The translations under genes and the position numbers were made by a program. Positions 22,386-32,631 of a DNA stretch of 64,000 nucleotides are shown here, piece by piece. Source of the stretch: Chryseolinea sp. H1M3-3 (GTDB lineage: Bacteria > Bacteroidota > Bacteroidia > Cytophagales > Cyclobacteriaceae); contig NZ_JARKMY010000014.1 of the NCBI RefSeq assembly GCF_029360725.1, positions 62,001-126,000 of the forward strand, given 5' to 3'. Below the pieces are notes generated by a model that saw nothing but the letters and a program-made list of their open reading frames with translations, was not told the DNA's origin and did no database searches. Position 1 is the stretch's first letter; the number at the start of each line of letters is the position of its first letter.

Positions 22386-23813
22386 ATGAAAAAAAGACTT
22401 CTCGCACTCGCATTAATCACTGTTGGGCTAGTGTACAATATACAAGCGCAGACGCCCGGGCATAGACCTTATCGTCAATTCTTTGCCAACTCTTATCTTT
22501 TCAATCCTGCATACGTTGGAATAAACAATCAGGCCGAACTTAATCTTTCATATCGTCAACAGTGGGTAAATTTTAAAGATGCACCCGTAATAACAGGGCT
22601 AAATCTTCAACTGCCAACAAATAACCGGGTTGCGTTAGGCTTTAGTATCACCAGCGACAAACAGGTTTTACTTCGCAATTCAACGTTCATGGCTACGTTT
22701 GGATATGTGGTGCCGATTGCAGACAATCAATCTATACGATTCGGACTTTCCGGCGGAGTGGGCATGAATCAATTGGATTTAACTTCAGAAGAATTGAATA
22801 CAAACGATCCCGCTATTATCAATGCAGCTGATAATAATTTTTATGTTGATGGAAACGTAGGCGTTGTTTATGCCCACTCAGGGTTTAAACTGGGCTTTGC
22901 GTTTACAGAACTTTTTAGTTCCAATTCATTCAATCATGATTCATTTAGCAAATTCGCATTTTCAAATTTAAAGAATCGCCTGTACTCTATGAGCTATCGC
23001 TTCAACTTAGGAATGATGCAAAATTTTGCCATGGAGCCTTATGTTTTGTATCGCCAAAGTGCCGATGGTTTACAAGACGCATGGGAAGCAGCGTCCCTGG
23101 TTTATTATAAAGACAAAGTATGGACGGGTGCTGGATTTAACCAAAATAAAGGTTTAGCGCTTTTCTTTGGTATGAATGTGAAGGATAAATTCAGATTCAG
23201 CTACAGTTACGATTTCCCTCCCTTTAAATCGGGCGTAAGTGCAACGAGTGCCCATGAGTTACACCTGAGTTTGAAATTTGGAAAGAAGAAGACTTTCCCG
23301 TTTGTGAAGAGCAAACCAAAACCTGCAATTTATTCACGGCCTGCTACCGAAGTAGCGAATGCTAATACTCCGAAAACAGATAGCATTGAGACGATGAATA
23401 AGGAAGCTAAAATAGCAAAGAAGTCACCTTCGAATGATGCGAAGAAAATTACGCCTCAAAGTGATCCTTCCCAAAACAATGCAAAACGAAACCCTGAAGA
23501 GTATGTAGTAGACAATAAATCCATCGCAAAAACAGAGATTAAAAAACCTGCCGGCCGACCTGCAAAGAGCTTTACTATCACGAAAGGGCATTATGTGGTC
23601 GTCGGGGTGTTCAGTATGATGGACCACTCTACACGATTTACCAAACAATTGCTGAAAGAAGGCTATGATGTTAACGTAGCACTCAATCCCAAGAACAAGT
23701 TCTACTACGTCTACATCTTCTCCTCATACGATATTGAGGAAGCGAAAAAGATTAGAAACCAATATCGCTGGAAAAATCTATTCAAAGAAGCATGGGTCTT
23801 CACAATGGAATAA
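22386..23813 (+). CDS. PorP/SprF-family outer-membrane protein with C-terminal SPOR domain
   Basis: A 475-residue fusion. A signal peptide (about 1-21, ending at QA) is followed by a PorP/SprF-type beta-barrel domain (about 22-300) with the family opening YRQFFANSYLFNPAYVGINN. A linker of about 100 residues rich in Lys, Asn, Ser and Pro leads to a C-terminal SPOR-like domain (about 400-475: HYVVVGVFSMMDHSTRFTKQ to EAWVFTME), a fold that binds glycan strands lacking stem peptides. PorP/SprF proteins anchor or help secrete type IX cargo and gliding adhesins. The SPOR end could tether the barrel to peptidoglycan (inference). It converges with the downstream LRR operon with 15 nt between stops. 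Confidence 0.88.
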   Translation: MKKRLLALALITVGLVYNIQAQTPGHRPYRQFFANSYLFNPAYVGINNQAELNLSYRQQWVNFKDAPVITGLNLQLPTNNRVALGFSITSDKQVLLRNSTFMATFGYVVPIADNQSIRFGLSGGVGMNQLDLTSEELNTNDPAIINAADNNFYVDGNVGVVYAHSGFKLGFAFTELFSSNSFNHDSFSKFAFSNLKNRLYSMSYRFNLGMMQNFAMEPYVLYRQSADGLQDAWEAASLVYYKDKVWTGAGFNQNKGLALFFGMNVKDKFRFSYSYDFPPFKSGVSATSAHELHLSLKFGKKKTFPFVKSKPKPAIYSRPATEVANANTPKTDSIETMNKEAKIAKKSPSNDAKKITPQSDPSQNNAKRNPEEYVVDNKSIAKTEIKKPAGRPAKSFTITKGHYVVVGVFSMMDHSTRFTKQLLKEGYDVNVALNPKNKFYYVYIFSSYDIEEAKKIRNQYRWKNLFKEAWVFTME

Positions 23814-23828
23814 GAACGAAGGTTCTAC

Positions 23829-26258
23829 TTAGCGATAGTAAACGACATTACATTCAGGAATACGACTCTTAAGTTTCTCAACTTCCTTACTAGACACTCG
23901 AGTGTTATAACACTTGAGTGTTTTTAGTGGAAGACCAAAAAGTGGTTCCAGCTTTTTTACATTCGTATTCGAACAGTCAAGAGATTCCAAAGACAAATTA
24001 TCCAATGGGCTAAGGCTGCTTACCTGCGTCCCGGAGCAATTTAATACGCGGAGGTTTTCAAGGGCGCTCAATGGTTTTAGCTCTTCAATTGGCGTATTTG
24101 AAATGTCCAGCTCTTCCAAGTTGTTTAGCTGGGCTAACGGTCCCAGATCCCGAAGAGGGCTGTTTGTCGCGGACAATTTTTTAATGGTCTTTAAATTTAC
24201 CAACGGGGAAATATCAGACAGCGCTGTTCCGGAGAAACTTAGGTTTGTAAGCCTGATGAATACTCCCAATGTTGACAGGTCATTAACAGCGACATCCTTA
24301 AACTGGAGGGTCTCAAGTTCAATAAGCCGATGGAGGTCCTCTCGCCTTGACTTTGATTGAATAGAAACCTGCGCATTAAAAATTGCTTTCCAATCTTCTG
24401 AAAGCTCATTCCACCAGGTTAGCAACGTATCTGTTTTATAAACAATCAGGCAGTCAGAATTTTTTCTTAAAAAATTTTGGACGTCTGTATCGTCAACGCC
24501 CGTCTCGTCTGCATATATTTTTTTAAGACTACGCAGGCCTACAAGAGGTTCCAGGTCTTGTATTTTGCTTTGGTCAGCCTTAAGCATTGTAAGATTGCCG
24601 AACTGCGGCAATAAAGAAATATCACTCACTGCTGTGTTGCTGATGTCGAGTGTTTTTATTCGCTTGTGCTCTTGCAAAGGCGATAGATTATTAATGCCGG
24701 TGCCGCTCGCAAGTAAGACCTGCAATTTCTGCAACCGCTGCAATGGTTCAACATCTTTCAGGTCATTGTTATCCGTAACGTTGATAGAATCAAGATTGGT
24801 TATTTTCACTAACTCCTCGTTCGTGGGTAACGTACCTGTACCTGCAGCGTCACGAAATACTTTTTGCCACGCCTGAGAAAGCGAATCCCACCATCCCTTT
24901 AAATCTTTCGAATCATAAATAACCAGTACGCCCTTTCTTGAAGCCATGAAGGATTCAGCAACGGACCGATTAATTTTCGTTTGATCACAATAAATCCTTT
25001 CAATATTAGGCAGATCGTGAAAAGCATTTAAATCTGAAATCAATGTGTTGTTAAGTCTGACAATTTTCAAATTTTTTAAATCAGACAAAGGTTTAATGTA
25101 AGAAACCTGCGTGCTATCCAAGTTGAGCACGGTTAAATTATTCAATCCTTTTAGTGGATTAACATTTTCTGTCAAGGTCCGCGATGCATTTAATTCGTTG
25201 AGGTTGAACAACGAATCCAACGGTGAAAGATTCGATATTTTTGCTTTCTCCAGATTCAAATATTTTAATGCGGTGAGATAACTAAGTGGTGTAAATTCGG
25301 TCACGTTTGTTCCACTCAAATCCAGATTTTCGAGTCGTGACATTCTTTCAAGAACCGTGATATCACTGATAGCCGTGCCGTTAAGATTTAGTTTTACGAG
25401 TTTATCGGCATACTTGAGTGCAGCGATATCTTCCAACTTCGTGTTCGACAAATTTAAATCCACGAGGTCTGTAAGATTTCTTATTGGACTTATGTCAGTG
25501 ACAGAACTGTTGGATAGATTCAGCGCTTGTAAACCCGACAACTGCGTTAAAGGCTCGATGTCTTGTATAAACTGATTGCCGGTAAGGTCAAGTGCTTCAA
25601 TAGAAGCAATGTTCTGAAGATCGGTTAAATCTACGCTATCAGTAATGTTTAACTTTCGTTGAAGTATCGATTGCCACTCAAACGATAACTGTTTCCACCA
25701 ACTAAGCAGGGCGCCCTTTTCATCAAACTGATTTGTATAGATGCTAACGATCTTGAGATCCTGATCTTTAGGATCGTAATTAATCTCTATGTACCGGGGA
25801 ATTGTATTGTTAACAAGTTTACCTTCAACGGTTGTGCCTTGAATATTTCTTATCAACGAGACCTTATAAAACAGTCTGTCATTAGCGTTAACCTTCCCCT
25901 GAATGTCTTTTATCGTAAACTCGAACTTCAGATTATCGTAAAAAAAATCAACGTCTTTTAAATAGGCTTGAACATCCTTGTTGGTAATAACATTTCTTTT
26001 TTCAACAAGATCATCTTCTATCTGAACTTTGGCGTCGCGAAAAATCTTGGTATAACTTTCCGTAATCAACACATCTTTATCGCGGGCTGACGTTGTTCCA
26101 CTGCCTATAGTATTGAGGACGTACTCCAGAAAGGCGACCATGTCCCTGACTTTTTGCTCGTGCTTTTTTGTGTCAGGTTTGGATTGCTGGGCTTGCACCT
26201 CCACACCTGCTATGAAAATAAAAAAAGCCGAAAGAAACCACCATTTATTTTGTCTCAT
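23829..26258 (-). CDS. Secreted leucine-rich-repeat protein with three repeated modules
   Basis: An exported protein of about 809 residues; an upstream ATG at 26297 would add 13 residues. The start at 26258 gives a clean signal peptide (MRQNKWWFLSAFFIFIAGVE, ending VQA). An N-terminal domain (about 25-185) resembles the small secreted protein encoded two genes upstream. The rest is three modules, each opening with a tryptophan-rich cap (SWWKQLSFEW, GWWDSLSQAW, TWWNELSEDW), followed by 22-residue LRRs of the LxxLxLSxTxVSDISPL type, and closing with a hydrophobic cap (GVLVIY, DCLIVY, ECNVVYY). LRRs suggest protein or ligand binding. The start overlaps the upstream gene by 14 nt. Confidence 0.88.
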   Translation of the reverse strand: MRQNKWWFLSAFFIFIAGVEVQAQQSKPDTKKHEQKVRDMVAFLEYVLNTIGSGTTSARDKDVLITESYTKIFRDAKVQIEDDLVEKRNVITNKDVQAYLKDVDFFYDNLKFEFTIKDIQGKVNANDRLFYKVSLIRNIQGTTVEGKLVNNTIPRYIEINYDPKDQDLKIVSIYTNQFDEKGALLSWWKQLSFEWQSILQRKLNITDSVDLTDLQNIASIEALDLTGNQFIQDIEPLTQLSGLQALNLSNSSVTDISPIRNLTDLVDLNLSNTKLEDIAALKYADKLVKLNLNGTAISDITVLERMSRLENLDLSGTNVTEFTPLSYLTALKYLNLEKAKISNLSPLDSLFNLNELNASRTLTENVNPLKGLNNLTVLNLDSTQVSYIKPLSDLKNLKIVRLNNTLISDLNAFHDLPNIERIYCDQTKINRSVAESFMASRKGVLVIYDSKDLKGWWDSLSQAWQKVFRDAAGTGTLPTNEELVKITNLDSINVTDNNDLKDVEPLQRLQKLQVLLASGTGINNLSPLQEHKRIKTLDISNTAVSDISLLPQFGNLTMLKADQSKIQDLEPLVGLRSLKKIYADETGVDDTDVQNFLRKNSDCLIVYKTDTLLTWWNELSEDWKAIFNAQVSIQSKSRREDLHRLIELETLQFKDVAVNDLSTLGVFIRLTNLSFSGTALSDISPLVNLKTIKKLSATNSPLRDLGPLAQLNNLEELDISNTPIEELKPLSALENLRVLNCSGTQVSSLSPLDNLSLESLDCSNTNVKKLEPLFGLPLKTLKCYNTRVSSKEVEKLKSRIPECNVVYYR

Positions 26259-27078
26259 AATAGACGTACTTTCTGAGAAGATTTTTTTCAGACTCATTTT
26301 TTACCTTAACAAGATTAGAGATCAACCATCCTGTATTATATCCGGAGCGGTTAAATTCGGCCAGTTCAAAATACCATCCATTAATCTGAAAAAAGTGAAA
26401 TTTCACCTCTTCAACAGTCTTGAATTTCATGTTTCCTTTCCTTATCTCATACAAAAAAACGGATAGATGATCAGGAATGAATTTTTTTAATGTGTATTGA
26501 TTTACACTATCTGCATTGCTAAAGGCCTTTCTCAAGTTCATGAAATCCAGTTCATGACTTAAGGGATGAAGAAATTTTCCAACCTTGACGGTGTCTTTTT
26601 CAAAGACAGATTTGAAGACTTCGGAATAGACGCGGCTGATCACCCAGCGTGTACCCAGGTGGTGTTTTTCCAATTCCATGAATAGGGTAACAGGTACATC
26701 TTTTCCGTTCATCGTGAAAAGTGTGTGTACTTCAGAAAACCAGTTGGCCCCATGAAAATTCAAAATAACGGGTTTATCCTTGTTAAGGACTTCTTTCGCG
26801 AATTCTACTTTTAGCTCCGGACTAATACCTGGATTGCTGGCGTCAAACAACATTCCGATATACTTTTTCCGGAGCTTTTCACTGCGATATTGTCTGTCTT
26901 TTGGATAATACCTTTCACCCTTCTCATCCTCCTCGCCATTAAAGCGCCTGAAGAACTGATTTACTTGCTTATTCTCAGCATAGAGCCTGCTCTCATCCTC
27001 CATCTCCTCTACAAGCTGTGCGTGCAAGGAATTGGACAGTAATATTCCTACAATGAAGACTATGAATTTTATTCTCAT
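26245..27078 (-). CDS. Exported protein of unknown function
   Basis: A 277-residue protein with a signal peptide (about 1-20, SNSLHA|Q). The mature part is highly charged: KQVNQFFRRFNGEEDEKGER near the N-terminus, a middle beta-rich segment with NFHGANWFSEVHTLFTMNGK, and a C-terminal segment with FHFFQINGWYFELAEFNRSG. No named family recognised. The start codon overlaps the preceding gene's stop by 4 nt and its end overlaps the LRR gene by 14 nt, so the three are translationally linked. Function unknown; the context implies action in the same envelope process as the LRR protein. Confidence 0.82.
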   Translation of the reverse strand: MRIKFIVFIVGILLSNSLHAQLVEEMEDESRLYAENKQVNQFFRRFNGEEDEKGERYYPKDRQYRSEKLRKKYIGMLFDASNPGISPELKVEFAKEVLNKDKPVILNFHGANWFSEVHTLFTMNGKDVPVTLFMELEKHHLGTRWVISRVYSEVFKSVFEKDTVKVGKFLHPLSHELDFMNLRKAFSNADSVNQYTLKKFIPDHLSVFLYEIRKGNMKFKTVEEVKFHFFQINGWYFELAEFNRSGYNTGWLISNLVKVKNESEKNLLRKYVYYETK

Positions 27079-27653
27079 GCACTCGTTTCGGCCACCCTGA
27101 TATCACCCAGCAACACATCCCAGAATTCGATTGTCCTCCCTTGAATCTGTGTTTTTTTCTTTTCGACGTAGATCGTGATGTCCTTTTTTGTGGTGTCCTT
27201 ATATTTTAATCCGTCATCAGATGATCCTTCAAATCGTTGATAAATTGTGACAACACCGACATACCTTCCATCTGGTTGTCTTTCCAGATCGCTGATGTAA
27301 TGAATATCGTACCATGAAATTGTAACACGGTCATAGTTAAGTGCCATTAAGCGCTCAAAATATTTACGCACTTTATAGTAGTTGATTTCTTTTCTGTTCA
27401 AAGAAGAAACACCCATTTCGCTGTCGGGGGCAAACAATTCTTCCGCCCTATCCATGACACGTGTTGCTTCTGAGAACGGCGTTTTCTTATTTCCGATAAT
27501 GCTGATGTATTTACTTAAGTCTCTTACCTTTTCCAACGCAAGAGAGTCAATTGCCTGTTTTCGGGCTGGGCTTATATCATCCTTCTGTGCAAATGCAAAG
27601 CTTACGATACACAGGCCGAGGAACAGCGTAGATAAAAATTTATAGTTAAGCAT
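27075..27653 (-). CDS. Small exported protein related to the LRR protein's N-terminal domain
   Basis: A 192-residue protein with a signal peptide (about 1-22, ending SFAFA|Q). The mature part begins with a helical region (RKQAIDSLALEKVRDLSKYI) and continues into alternating strands (YDRVTISWYDIHYISDLE, GRYVGVVTIYQRFEG). By eye it aligns with residues 25-185 of the LRR protein of the same operon: both have a KVRD start, a helix, and strand pairs ending YQRFEG or RNIQGT. The layout is compatible with an NTF2-like fold, which I infer and cannot prove. It overlaps the downstream gene by 4 nt. Confidence 0.82.
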   Translation of the reverse strand: MLNYKFLSTLFLGLCIVSFAFAQKDDISPARKQAIDSLALEKVRDLSKYISIIGNKKTPFSEATRVMDRAEELFAPDSEMGVSSLNRKEINYYKVRKYFERLMALNYDRVTISWYDIHYISDLERQPDGRYVGVVTIYQRFEGSSDDGLKYKDTTKKDITIYVEKKKTQIQGRTIEFWDVLLGDIRVAETSA

Positions 27654-27677
27654 GTTATTGTTTTTTAAGAATTTGAA

Positions 27678-28211
27678 TTATTTCTGTTTTACCAATTCTA
27701 CCTCAGTGATTTTTCCTGCGTTGTCGAATTGGAGGTTTCCAATTTTATCGGCTTGCTTCTTCTGATCTTTTAAGTAGTGAAGGTAATTCCGGATTGTTGT
27801 TGGCCTGTCATAATCCTTTTGACCACCTGCTTCATGAATCACGATCAGCACAGGGGTATCGGGCGATGCAAACATCGATAATGCTTCATTGATGCTGCTA
27901 TTGGCCGATGCCTCATTAGATGAATTTGATATCGCGCCGAAATATTGCTCCAGCTGGCTTTGAGGATTTTTCTTTTTTGCGTCTTCAGCGGCCCTTCTTG
28001 CTGCTTCTTCATCAGCTTCTCTCTGCCTGCGTGCTTCTTCTTCCTGTTGTTTTTTGAGCGCTGCTGCTTCCTGCTCCATTCTGGCTTTTTCAGCAGCTGC
28101 GGCAGCTTCAGCTGCCTTCTTTTTACTCTTACAGCCTCCCGCCGTCGCCATGAGAACGACGAGCAAGGCCAACATGATGAATCGTGATGTGTTTCGGATT
28201 ACTTGTACCAT
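27678..28211 (-). CDS. Alanine/glutamate-rich coiled-coil lipoprotein
   Basis: A lipoprotein of about 177 residues. I place the start at 28211 because that ATG is followed by a lipoprotein signal with lipobox TAGGC (Cys27); a longer frame to 28430 would bury the signal peptide after 73 residues. A charged coiled coil (about 28-82), rich in Ala, Glu, Arg and Lys, follows. A small globular C-terminal domain (about 88-177) contains NEALSMFASPDTPVLIVIHE and RNYLHYLKDQKKQADK. First gene of the four-gene operon; the next starts 24 nt on. No family recognised. Confidence 0.8.
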   Translation of the reverse strand: MVQVIRNTSRFIMLALLVVLMATAGGCKSKKKAAEAAAAAEKARMEQEAAALKKQQEEEARRQREADEEAARRAAEDAKKKNPQSQLEQYFGAISNSSNEASANSSINEALSMFASPDTPVLIVIHEAGGQKDYDRPTTIRNYLHYLKDQKKQADKIGNLQFDNAGKITEVELVKQK

Positions 28212-28725: not shown

Positions 28726-31700
28726 ATGAATAGGATAATTCTCTCGATCTTATTAGTTGTGGGCTTTTGTGATGTAATCGCCAGAGATTATTATGTGGGT
28801 GGAACCGGTGCTTCCGATAATAACCCAGGCACAGCAGCACAGCCTTTCGCTACCATCCAAAAGGCTGCTAGTGTTGCCGTCGCCGGTGACATTGTTAAAA
28901 TTCGCTCAGGTACCTATCGGGAAACTATTGTTCCTGCCAATTCAGGCGCCGCAGGAAACCCAATCATTTATCAACCCGATGGAAATGCAACCGTCTTAAT
29001 CAGCGGTTTGAATGAAGTAGGCACTACGGGTTGGACCCTGCACAATGGTAATGTTTATAAGAAAAGCATTACACTTCCGGTTAACGGGTTTAACACAAGT
29101 ACCACGCGTATAGAAAACAATACAACCATTTATGCCAACCAGATCTTTAAGGATGGTGAAATGATGTTTGAAGCACGGTGGCCTAAAATAGATAAATTTG
29201 CCGACCTGCTTGATCGTAATAAATTCAGACAAAGATCCAGCATGGTCATCTGGGAACCTGGATATCTTCAAGATAACGGTTTACCCCTCCCCGCCCCTCA
29301 GTTACAAGGTGCTACTTTAGTATCCAACGGTTGGTTCATAACGGAAACAAGAACGATTACTTCTCATTCCGGCAATCAGCTTAATCATGCTGACATTTGG
29401 AACAACACAGCAACGGGAAAATGGAGCCGTCAACGTTATTATGTAACAGGCAAACTGGCCTTGCTAACACAAGCAAAAGAATGGCATTACGAAAACGGTA
29501 CTTTATATTTCTGGCAACCAGGCGGCGGAATCCCATCTGGTACCATTGAATATAAAGCAAGAAACTGGGCTTTCGATATTCGTGGAAAATCAAACATTAC
29601 CATTGCAGGCCTGACTTTTAAAGGATGCGAGCCCGCCGTAGGTAATGCTGCCAGTGTGAATACACTCCTCGATAATATCCGGGCATCTTACATGAATCAC
29701 CATGTTAGGCATGACGTTGGAGAATGGCAGGGCGTCGGCATGTCTAAAATATTTGGAATTAAATTACTTGGCGCAAACAGCGTTATCAAAAACAGTGAGC
29801 TACATTCCTCAGGTTCATCTGGCGTATGGCTTGGACCAAACTGCCGCGCAGAAAATAATTTGATGCACGATATGGGATATGTCGGATTCTGGGCGAATCC
29901 GATAAGTTTATGGGACCGCGATGGCGGGCAAGTTATCACACGGAACACCATATACAGGACTGGCCGATCCTGCTTTGATTTTGGTTACAATTGGAATGGT
30001 CAGCATTTCAATGTAGAAATTAGCTACAACGATTTTTCACAATGGGGACTCATCAGCCAGGATGTTGGAGCAACTTACGCTTGGGGCCAATGTAATTTAA
30101 CAGGAATGAATTATCACCACAACTGGATTCACGATACTGGCGCACCTGATGGGCCAGACGTTGGAGCAAACGTGGGCATTTACTTTGACCAGGCTACAGG
30201 GCCTGGAACTATACATCATAATGTTACCTGGAATTGTGGTGCGGCAGATGTGTATCACGAGGTAGTGAATGAGACGCGAAATTCAACCCATGGACTGGGC
30301 ACACCGAGTACCATAAATTTTTACAACAATACTTTTGCGAACACCGGTGGTTCATATCCAAGATCATACATCACTTATCGTACAAGTCCTTTCGATATAC
30401 AAAGAAATAATATTTACAGAAGTCAGATCATCATCGGACCTGGGCTTCCTGGCGATATTGCAAACGCCTTGTTACCCGCTATCAATCCGCAGTTTGTTAA
30501 CTCCGGGCAAGGAGGCTTGATATACAGACCTAACACAGGCTCGCCTGCAATCAACGCGGGTGTTATTATACCTGGTATAACTGATGGCAGCGTTGGCGCA
30601 CCTGATATCGGTGCTTATGAATTCGGTGGCGAAGCCTGGGTACCTGGTTATAAACCAGTGCAGTTTAATTATGGTGGCGCAAGCAATAGTCAGCCTGTAG
30701 GGAGCATTACAAGCCCGGCAAATAATACCTCATTTGCACAAGGCACACCCATCACCATTACAGCGAGCGCATCCGACCCGGACGGAACAGTAACTAAAGT
30801 TGAGTTTTTCAACGGTACTACTAAACTTGGAGAAGACACAGCCGCTCCCTATACCTTTGTCTGGAACAACGCACCTAATGGAACGCATAGCCTTACAGTT
30901 AAAGTGACGGACAATCTCAATGCTGTTATAACCTCAGCTGCCAGAAGTATCACGGTCAGTGCCAACAGCGCACCTGGCGTCTCCATCACAGCACCTGCTA
31001 ACAATGCTCAATTTAATACTGGTGTGCCCATCACCATTACGGCTACTGCTTCGGATACGAACGGCAGCGTAACCAAGGTTGAATTCTTCAATGGAACAAC
31101 TAAACTAGGCGAAGACCTTACAAGTCCCTACAGCTTTACCTGGAATAACGCAGCAGCGGGAACACACGCATTAACCGCAAAAGCTACTGATAATGCTAAT
31201 AGTGTTACAACGTCAGCATCAGTAAGCATTACGGTGGGAACCGGGAATATTCCGCCCGCGGTTGCCATTATCACGCCTGCAAACAACTCACAGTTTAATT
31301 CTGGTGCTTCCATAACCATCACGGCAACAGCCTCGGATTCTAACGGGTCGGTAAGTAAAGTTGAATTCTTTAATGGAGCGACCAAACTTGGCGAAGATCT
31401 TACCGCGCCGTACAGTTTCACCTGGAGAAGTGCACCACTGGGCACACATGCTTTAACGGCAAAAGCGACGGACAATCAAAATAGCGTGACAACGTCAAGT
31501 GTTGTTAGTGTTGTTGTAGGAGCTGCTAATGTTCCCCCGACCGTTGCTTTAATAACGCCATCAAACAATGCAAGATATAATAACGGTGCACCTATTGTAC
31601 TTTCAGCTACGGCTGCAGACGCGAACGGCTCTATAACTAAAGTAGAATTCTTTAACGGAACCACGAAAATCGGCGAAGACCTGACCGCTCCTTACAGTTT

Positions 31701-32631
31701 CACCTGGAACGGCGCACCCGCAGGGACACATACCTTGAGAGCCAAGGCTACTGACAATCAAAACGCCGTGACTACATCTGCATCAGTAAGTATTACAGTG
31801 GGTGGGGTAAATTCAGCACCAACAATATCCATTACAAGTCCATTGAACAACTCTCAGTTCAATACTGGAACGATAACCATCACAGCAACGGCTTCTGATG
31901 CAAACGGTACTGTTTCCAAAGTTGAGTTCTTCAACGGCACGGTTAAATTAGGCGAAGATTTAATAAGTCCATACAGCTTCATCTGGGCCAATGTTGCCGC
32001 GGGGAGCTATGAATTAACAGCAACAGCAACCGATAACTCGAATGCTGTTTCAACATCGGAGGTTATTTCTATTACTGTTGGAGGTGGCATATCTCCGGTC
32101 GCGAACGCAGGAGATGATATTATACTTGTTTTGCCAAACAATTCGACAACACTCTCTGCACCTAGAGAAAATCCGGATGGCCCTTCACTTGAATATACCT
32201 GGCAACAGGTTGAAGGACCCAGCTCTCCTATTTTCAATCCGCAACATACCGAGATTATCCTGTCAGACCTGGTTGAAGGAACCTATGTGTTTGAACTGAC
32301 CGTCGTCGGTGAAGACGGGATGTCAAGCAGTGATCTTGTCAATGTAATAGTTCAGTCTTCTTCGGAGTCGGAAGGTATTATCCCTCGGGTTTTTACACCC
32401 AATGGGGATGGCAAAGAAGATTATTGGATTTGGCCTGATGACGAACGTTATAAAAATTCCAGGTTAACAATTCTTAATCAGGCAGGACAGATCGTGTATG
32501 AGGCAGTGTCTTACAACAATACCTGGGATGGAACGATGGGAGGCCAACCTCTCCAGGAAGGACAATATCAATACGTCATTCATCTTCCTGACTCCACCCC
32601 TATAAAGGCATCTGTAAGAATTAGAAGATAA
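28726..32631 (+). CDS. Secreted parallel beta-helix protein with five Ig-like repeats and T9SS-type C-terminus
   Basis: A 1301-residue exported protein. A signal peptide (about 1-19) is followed by a right-handed parallel beta-helix domain (about 20-640) of the pectate-lyase-like/DUF1565 type, opening with YYVGGTGASDNNPGTAAQPF and containing many NNT/HHN turns. Five Ig-like domains (Big family; about 658-1125) repeat every 94 residues, each with the core KVEFFNGTTKLGED. A PKD-like domain (about 1123-1212) and a CHU_C-type gliding/T9SS sorting domain (about 1213-1301, PRVFTPNGDGKEDYW) complete it. The helix is typical of polysaccharide lyases or sugar-binding proteins; the substrate is unknown. 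Export is probably through T9SS with a type B signal. Confidence 0.9.
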   Translation: MNRIILSILLVVGFCDVIARDYYVGGTGASDNNPGTAAQPFATIQKAASVAVAGDIVKIRSGTYRETIVPANSGAAGNPIIYQPDGNATVLISGLNEVGTTGWTLHNGNVYKKSITLPVNGFNTSTTRIENNTTIYANQIFKDGEMMFEARWPKIDKFADLLDRNKFRQRSSMVIWEPGYLQDNGLPLPAPQLQGATLVSNGWFITETRTITSHSGNQLNHADIWNNTATGKWSRQRYYVTGKLALLTQAKEWHYENGTLYFWQPGGGIPSGTIEYKARNWAFDIRGKSNITIAGLTFKGCEPAVGNAASVNTLLDNIRASYMNHHVRHDVGEWQGVGMSKIFGIKLLGANSVIKNSELHSSGSSGVWLGPNCRAENNLMHDMGYVGFWANPISLWDRDGGQVITRNTIYRTGRSCFDFGYNWNGQHFNVEISYNDFSQWGLISQDVGATYAWGQCNLTGMNYHHNWIHDTGAPDGPDVGANVGIYFDQATGPGTIHHNVTWNCGAADVYHEVVNETRNSTHGLGTPSTINFYNNTFANTGGSYPRSYITYRTSPFDIQRNNIYRSQIIIGPGLPGDIANALLPAINPQFVNSGQGGLIYRPNTGSPAINAGVIIPGITDGSVGAPDIGAYEFGGEAWVPGYKPVQFNYGGASNSQPVGSITSPANNTSFAQGTPITITASASDPDGTVTKVEFFNGTTKLGEDTAAPYTFVWNNAPNGTHSLTVKVTDNLNAVITSAARSITVSANSAPGVSITAPANNAQFNTGVPITITATASDTNGSVTKVEFFNGTTKLGEDLTSPYSFTWNNAAAGTHALTAKATDNANSVTTSASVSITVGTGNIPPAVAIITPANNSQFNSGASITITATASDSNGSVSKVEFFNGATKLGEDLTAPYSFTWRSAPLGTHALTAKATDNQNSVTTSSVVSVVVGAANVPPTVALITPSNNARYNNGAPIVLSATAADANGSITKVEFFNGTTKIGEDLTAPYSFTWNGAPAGTHTLRAKATDNQNAVTTSASVSITVGGVNSAPTISITSPLNNSQFNTGTITITATASDANGTVSKVEFFNGTVKLGEDLISPYSFIWANVAAGSYELTATATDNSNAVSTSEVISITVGGGISPVANAGDDIILVLPNNSTTLSAPRENPDGPSLEYTWQQVEGPSSPIFNPQHTEIILSDLVEGTYVFELTVVGEDGMSSSDLVNVIVQSSSESEGIIPRVFTPNGDGKEDYWIWPDDERYKNSRLTILNQAGQIVYEAVSYNNTWDGTMGGQPLQEGQYQYVIHLPDSTPIKASVRIRR
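30697..32100 (+). repeat. Five tandem 282-bp repeats encoding Ig-like domains
   Basis: Repeat units begin at 30697, 30979, 31261, 31543 and 31825, an exact spacing of 282 bases (94 codons). The protein motif KVEFFNG occurs in every unit. Codon use differs between units although the protein is conserved, so the array is old enough for synonymous drift while its length is held constant. Copy number in the array could vary between strains by recombination. Confidence 0.9.

Follow-up and report, generated by a model that had tools for sequence, protein, structure and literature searches.

A conserved four-gene operon of Chryseolinea sp. H1M3-3, with a predicted NTF2-like protein and a leucine-rich repeat protein, probably encodes an unstudied cell-envelope complex

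TssNQOPR, the membrane complex of the type VI secretion system of subtype iii (T6SSiii), is a Bacteroidota envelope complex with a lipoprotein and periplasmic domains; the 2024 paper on it (PMC10781749) predicted PKD folds for TssP and a vWA fold for TssR. According to the same paper, TssO, TssQ and TssR were unfound in a significant number of cases when T6SSiii were scanned, and the co-option of other genes was given as one possibility. TagQRST-PpkA, the threonine phosphorylation pathway of the Pseudomonas H1-T6SS (PMC11881912), also comprises a lipoprotein and periplasmic proteins. Here we analyzed a locus comparable to both, which lies in a 64,000-nt stretch of Chryseolinea sp. H1M3-3 (termed the window; its genome, labelled G000, is 6.88 Mb on 19 contigs). 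Four minus-strand genes form a tightly packed operon in the order lipoprotein, 192-residue protein (P2), 277-residue protein (P3) and 809-residue leucine-rich repeat (LRR) protein, and they probably specify an unstudied cell-envelope complex. A limited literature search on the operon's protein types and on links between NTF2-like proteins and type VI secretion found no relevant paper.

The lipoprotein gene (27678..28211) encodes 177 residues, an Ala/Glu/Lys-rich coil followed by a C-terminal domain. A 24-nt gap separates it from the gene of the exported P2 (27075..27653), which overlaps that of the exported P3 (26245..27078) by 4 nt. The P3 gene overlaps the fourth gene (23829..26258), whose exported product carries a P2-related N-terminal domain and LRR, by 14 nt when the ATG at 26258 is taken; an alternative upstream ATG at 26297 gives a 53-nt overlap. 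The head-to-tail operon with 4-nt and 14-nt overlaps proposed in a first-pass annotation of this DNA was thus reproduced. Signal peptides and the lipid cysteine were assigned by eye. Against the nearest relative (locus L093), the proportion of nonsynonymous differences (pN) was 0.05–0.16 in all four genes versus a saturated synonymous proportion (pS) of 0.77–0.88. This low pN beside saturated pS suggests purifying selection, and all four look like real genes.

Conservation was examined in 72 sequences, namely the window slice and 71 loci, from which 8 with diverged or second copies (L073–L080) were dropped. The remaining 64 loci do not equal 64 genomes, as G063 and G073 contribute two each; the relatives' genes were picked as longest open reading frames (ORFs), which misses ORFs running off contig ends. 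The co-occurrence on which the first-pass annotation had staked its proposal was borne out, as the order lipoprotein–P2–P3–LRR on one strand was kept in 56 of the 64 loci. The eight exceptions were five contig-end or fragmented loci, the two G063 loci with a split operon, and one without a called lipoprotein; the extra copies L079 and L080 lacked P3. Presence in the family was close to all-or-none: of its 98 genomes examined, 62 had both P2 and P3, neither being detected without the other, and 62 had the LRR N-terminal domain, with 61 common to all three; the odd genomes were G027 (a diverged P2–P3 copy only) and G069 (a short contig). Within the family, P2 identity was 71–93% for every full-length core copy save two (63% and 65%), and the corresponding ranges were 41–83% for P3 and 32–87% for the LRR N-terminal domain. 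G009 and G090 have second copies of lipoprotein–P2–LRR type, approximately 60% identical, which were left out of the count of diverged copies.

P2 and the LRR protein also occur together beyond the family. A wide P2 profile gave matches in 96 of the 242 order genomes and in 11 of 395 from the phylum; eight of these 11 fall inside the order and the other three matches were weak (~1e-15). Wherever the LRR protein matched strongly in the order (61 genomes, E ≤ 1e-50), P2 was present as well (Fisher p 1.5e-32; neither this nor the other Fisher and binomial values are corrected for common descent). In seven genomes of family f53, which are draft assemblies, P2 and the LRR protein have their best matches on separate contigs; the surroundings of P2, read at seven loci, showed no LRR gene, and the LRR side was examined in three. 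Retention of both genes on separate contigs suggests a coupling that goes beyond gene order.

For an exported protein, P2 shows high conservation, yet it falls below every Pfam and NCBIfam cut-off, and no model of either database reached its cut-off for P3. The predicted structure of P2 has the cone-like α+β fold of the NTF2-like superfamily; this predicted NTF2-like domain covers residues 28–192 (27078..27572) and has invariant Y151, D153, T155 and K157. P2 differs from known members, including the CaMKII association domain, ketosteroid isomerase and scytalone dehydratase, in sharing just 2–19% sequence identity with its structural matches (listed rows). The predicted model of P3, with a confidence score (pLDDT) of 86.9, comprised two units, each composed of a helix and three strands. 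Searches of PDB sequences with profiles of P2, P3 and the LRR N-terminal domain gave nothing credible; a match of the last to 14-3-3 at E ~0.02 spanned about 50 residues.

The first-pass annotation had recognized by eye a common domain in P2, the N-terminus of the LRR protein and the C-terminus of the lipoprotein, and both profile–profile and profile–sequence comparison confirmed it. Pairwise BLASTP was uninformative: two of the pairs gave no useful match, and lipoprotein and P2 were aligned over 23 residues only (E 0.002). Profile–profile comparison related P2 to the lipoprotein C-terminal domain (residues 82–176, 27684..27968) with a probability of 84% (hhalign, E 7.2e-6, 85 columns) and to the LRR N-terminal domain (residues 30–180, 25719..26171) with 33% (E 4.6e-4, 141 columns); the lipoprotein and the LRR N-terminal domain gave 18%, via the lipoprotein coil only. 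Profiles were further run at E ≤ 0.05 against 823 proteins and reversed-sequence decoys. This set includes loci L073–L080 as well as 556 unlabelled neighbours, some of them spurious ORFs, and the E-values are within-set, the profiles having been built from the same loci. The LRR N-terminal profile matched 34 of 69 P2 proteins, nearly always in a single register, and none of the 556 unlabelled proteins. The P2 profile matched 31 of the 63 lipoproteins and, among the 68 LRR-type proteins, 21, and again 0 of 556, whereas the lipoprotein profile matched 13 of 69 P2 proteins, no LRR protein and 2 of 556, namely the L078 kinase and, per an earlier list, a 224-residue ORF of L142. About half of the possible cross-pairs were detected at this threshold, and the decoys gave two matches (E 0.039 and 0.047). 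In whole-genome searches, the P2 profile also matched inside LRR ORFs at 6.8e-6 and weaker. On these profile comparisons, the three regions share a related domain, and through their homology to P2 the LRR N-terminal domain and the lipoprotein C-terminal domain are likewise predicted to be NTF2-like. The domain proposed as common to the whole set is thus supported for three of the four proteins; P3 was not linked by sequence, as its profile–profile probability was 2.6% against the LRR N-terminal domain and 0.4% against P2, and its profile matched P3 only in the 823-protein test.

Following its N-terminal domain, the LRR protein carries three arrays, the limits of which were drawn by eye. Array 1 (residues ~206–450, 24909..25643) is preceded by the cap WWKQLSFEW at residue 187, array 2 (~475–610, 24429..24836) by WWDSLSQAW at residue 456, and array 3 (~634–809, 23832..24359) by WWNELSEDW at residue 615. 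These LRR units resemble those of class 1 internalins, as three internalin-type NCBIfam models matched at 144–188 bits. However, the best score was 188.1 bits versus curated cut-offs of 1050 and more, and the protein has a different N-terminal domain and three capped arrays. A WW cap with the first LRR units was also matched in shorter ORFs without an N-terminal domain match (G450:C40, 361 residues; G426:C61, 232 residues). Relatives of the N-terminal domain occur fused to TPR and FGE domains and, by eye, to outer-membrane barrels or other C-termini. Such fusions, with an outer-membrane barrel or an FGE-sulfatase domain, raise the possibility that this domain serves generally as an adaptor in the periplasm. 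As individual cases, L274 and L276 have a probable outer-membrane barrel (by eye), L282 has an FGE-sulfatase domain, and L275 is a further relative.

The lipoprotein is presumed to be lipidated at Cys27 (28131..28133), which is followed by K-S-K-K-K as read by eye; Cys27 and Lys28 are near-invariant (at least 90% of 41 aligned sequences). According to PMC5080379, the export signal of surface-exposed Bacteroidota lipoproteins is acidic, K-(D/E)2 or Q-A-(D/E)2. This signal, defined in other genera, was absent after Cys27, where the sequence reads C-K-S-K-K-K, and Pfam and NCBIfam scans of the four proteins detected, at E ≤ 1, no C-terminal signal of the type IX secretion system (T9SS; Por_Secre_tail, CHU_C). 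The lack of both signals makes a periplasmic complex likelier than one at the surface. Weak Pfam matches of the lipoprotein and P2 (E 0.0026–1; e.g., TAF4 and RnlA_toxin) lay below cut-off and fit a coiled coil or chance.

Diverged copies of P2 were repeatedly located in or beside T6SSiii clusters. Linkage was counted with Pfam TssC only, on a P2 list comprising every listed locus of the 22 order genomes that have both genes, plus some loci from others. Diverged P2 was found within 30 kb of TssC in 13 of these 22 genomes; counted by locus, this held for 17 of the 35 P2 loci in genomes with TssC. In the family, TssC occurs in 5 of 98 genomes, namely in 3 of the 5 with diverged P2–P3 copies versus 2 of the 93 others (p 6e-4); the diverged module adjoins T6SSiii in G025 (one copy) and in G091, where kinase, PP2C and FHA genes are also present. 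Genes of these three types were observed in some other T6SSiii-linked clusters too, and the L284 cluster has an FGE-domain gene. The T6SS genes of the clusters were identified by Pfam as TssN, TssF and VgrG-type in G284 and TssC and PAAR in G530; the labels TssK, Hcp and ClpV come from single queries named by eye, of which the TssK query, like another putative Hcp ORF, had no Pfam match at 1e-5. The third genes of L073–L078 owe their N-terminal domain label to an iterated profile, the narrower LRR N-terminal profile having labelled only L077 and the P2 profile L076. In 16 of 20 loci of family f3, P2 is followed by an ORF of 427–476 residues, and the single one scanned (L278) was an OmpA-family protein. 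Many diverged P2 genes near T6SSiii encode longer proteins. L331, L335, L344, L346 and others of L330–L349 show P2-like, ~430-residue and N-terminal domain genes amid T6SSiii genes, the P2-like proteins there having an extra N-terminal stretch.

The locus accordingly invites comparison with both described systems. Like TssNQOPR, it combines a lipoprotein with periplasmic domains, and diverged copies of P2 and P3 are encoded within or next to T6SSiii clusters. In contrast, the four window proteins showed neither the PKD fold predicted for TssP nor the vWA fold predicted for TssR, and the core operon mostly occurs in genomes without T6SSiii. Pfam and NCBIfam scans of these proteins, made without a dedicated profile or a direct comparison with TssO, TssP, TssQ or TssR, named no TssN, TssO, TssP, TssQ or TssR among them. 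TagQRST-PpkA is resembled in the lipoprotein and periplasmic proteins and, for some diverged copies, in the kinase, PP2C, FHA and (L284) FGE-domain genes of their T6SSiii clusters. TagR is an FGE-like protein. In contrast to that system, no FGE domain was found in the four window proteins, the operon contains no ABC gene, and the window genome has neither T6SSiii TssC nor a Hanks kinase over cut-off.

From these observations we infer, with a probability of about 0.45, that the four proteins form a periplasmic complex which either reports on some machine of the envelope or positions it, and that the module has been reused beside T6SSiii. The lipoprotein would be the membrane anchor, most likely in the outer membrane, through its lipid and coil, and its C-terminal domain would dock with P2. 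As the most conserved subunit, P2 is the presumed hub, which P3 would join. The LRR protein would dock via its own P2-related domain and offer three arrays to an envelope partner, serving as an exchangeable recognizer, so that the complex might report on or position the machine according to envelope state; such a complex is compatible with both a sensor and a scaffold. The diverged module, consisting of a P2-like protein, a P3-like or OmpA-type ORF and an N-terminal domain protein with a non-LRR C-terminus, would act beside T6SSiii, sometimes with kinase, PP2C and FHA, as its trigger or as one of its envelope components. The assembled complex suggested at first pass is supported in part, by the operon, its conservation and the domain of three proteins, while its surface option is disfavored. 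If true, this would provide a concrete candidate for the trigger or anchor of some Bacteroidota T6SSiii, a point left open in the TssNQOPR paper cited above (PMC10781749), and a periplasmic module common to housekeeping and weapon systems.

Several observations weigh against this periplasmic reporting or positioning complex. T6SSiii TssC was not found in the window genome (other T6SS types were not searched), nor was any Pkinase (Hanks kinase) over cut-off, with one sub-threshold match of 21.8 bits; the T6SS and kinase link is thus confined to diverged copies and does not extend to the core operon. Four family genomes with the core operon do have TssC, located more than 250 kb away or on another contig, and so do 3 of the order's 61 LRR genomes, in none of which it lies near P2. 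Even for diverged copies, 9 of the 22 genomes with P2 and TssC showed no linkage, the copy of G071 is far from TssC, and the 20 f3 loci contain a kinase in just 2 and PP2C in 4. Carriage of the lipoprotein domain by kinase ectodomains was considered and rejected, since one of four kinases gave a weak match (L078, independent E-value 0.002), L076 was at noise level and two were unreported. Foldseek found no reliable PDB match for P3, and the neighbors of the core operon, inspected by eye over the 64 loci, are not conserved across the family.

A wider picture, which is tentative and on balance doubtful, is a Cytophagales envelope system of several NTF2-like subunits, having a housekeeping version with an interchangeable LRR recognizer and versions wired to T6SSiii and Ser/Thr kinases. 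The latter would serve either as a damage sensor that triggers firing or as a missing periplasmic component of the TssNQOPR complex in clades where TssO, TssQ and TssR were not found; within the limited literature search, such a system is undescribed.

A scaffold could also do housekeeping at the peptidoglycan and outer membrane, as a tether or a helper of wall synthesis, without sensing, in which case the T6SS-linked copies would be an envelope part, perhaps replacing TssO, TssQ and TssR. The OmpA-type ORF after P2 in f3 loci and the failure of scans to find these three proteins in a significant number of T6SSiii, with co-option named as possible in PMC10781749, are in line with it. So are PBP1A-type genes directly after the LRR gene in L083 (12168–14567), L085 (11219–13585) and L086 (12320–14614), at gaps of −22, 1 and 46, with Pfam Transgly and Transpeptidase for L083 only. 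However, this neighbor occurs in just 3 of the 64 loci, and Pfam and NCBIfam scans detected no peptidoglycan-binding domain in the four window proteins, leaving such housekeeping a possibility of modest weight.

Binding or transport of a small molecule or lipid in the periplasm appears improbable. NTF2-like folds often have a hydrophobic pocket, and many structural matches of P2 are ligand-binding or catalytic NTF2-like proteins. Yet the invariant residues of P2 include a Y-x-D-x-T-x-K strand and aromatics, in which no catalytic pair was recognizable by eye (the pocket was not computed), and three related domains plus LRR resemble assembly parts. A role as T9SS accessory, suggested by the PorP/SprF and type B cargo genes flanking the operon in the window and by a same-named cargo-like ORF (by eye) upstream in the closest relative L093, is very unlikely and was set aside because the flanks vary by eye over the 64 loci, and none of the four proteins bears a T9SS signal.

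Turning to the flanks themselves, a gatB-like and thioredoxin-like pair, named by eye, lies upstream in part of the family. In the window, a PorP/SprF-family T9SS membrane protein is encoded at 22386–23813 on the plus strand, and its C-terminal SPOR domain (22.5 bits versus a cut-off of 21) makes a peptidoglycan-binding fusion possible. Divergent from the operon, 28726–32631 on the plus strand encodes a 1301-residue T9SS type B cargo protein composed of five Big_7 Ig stretches, a PKD-like domain and a CHU_C tail.

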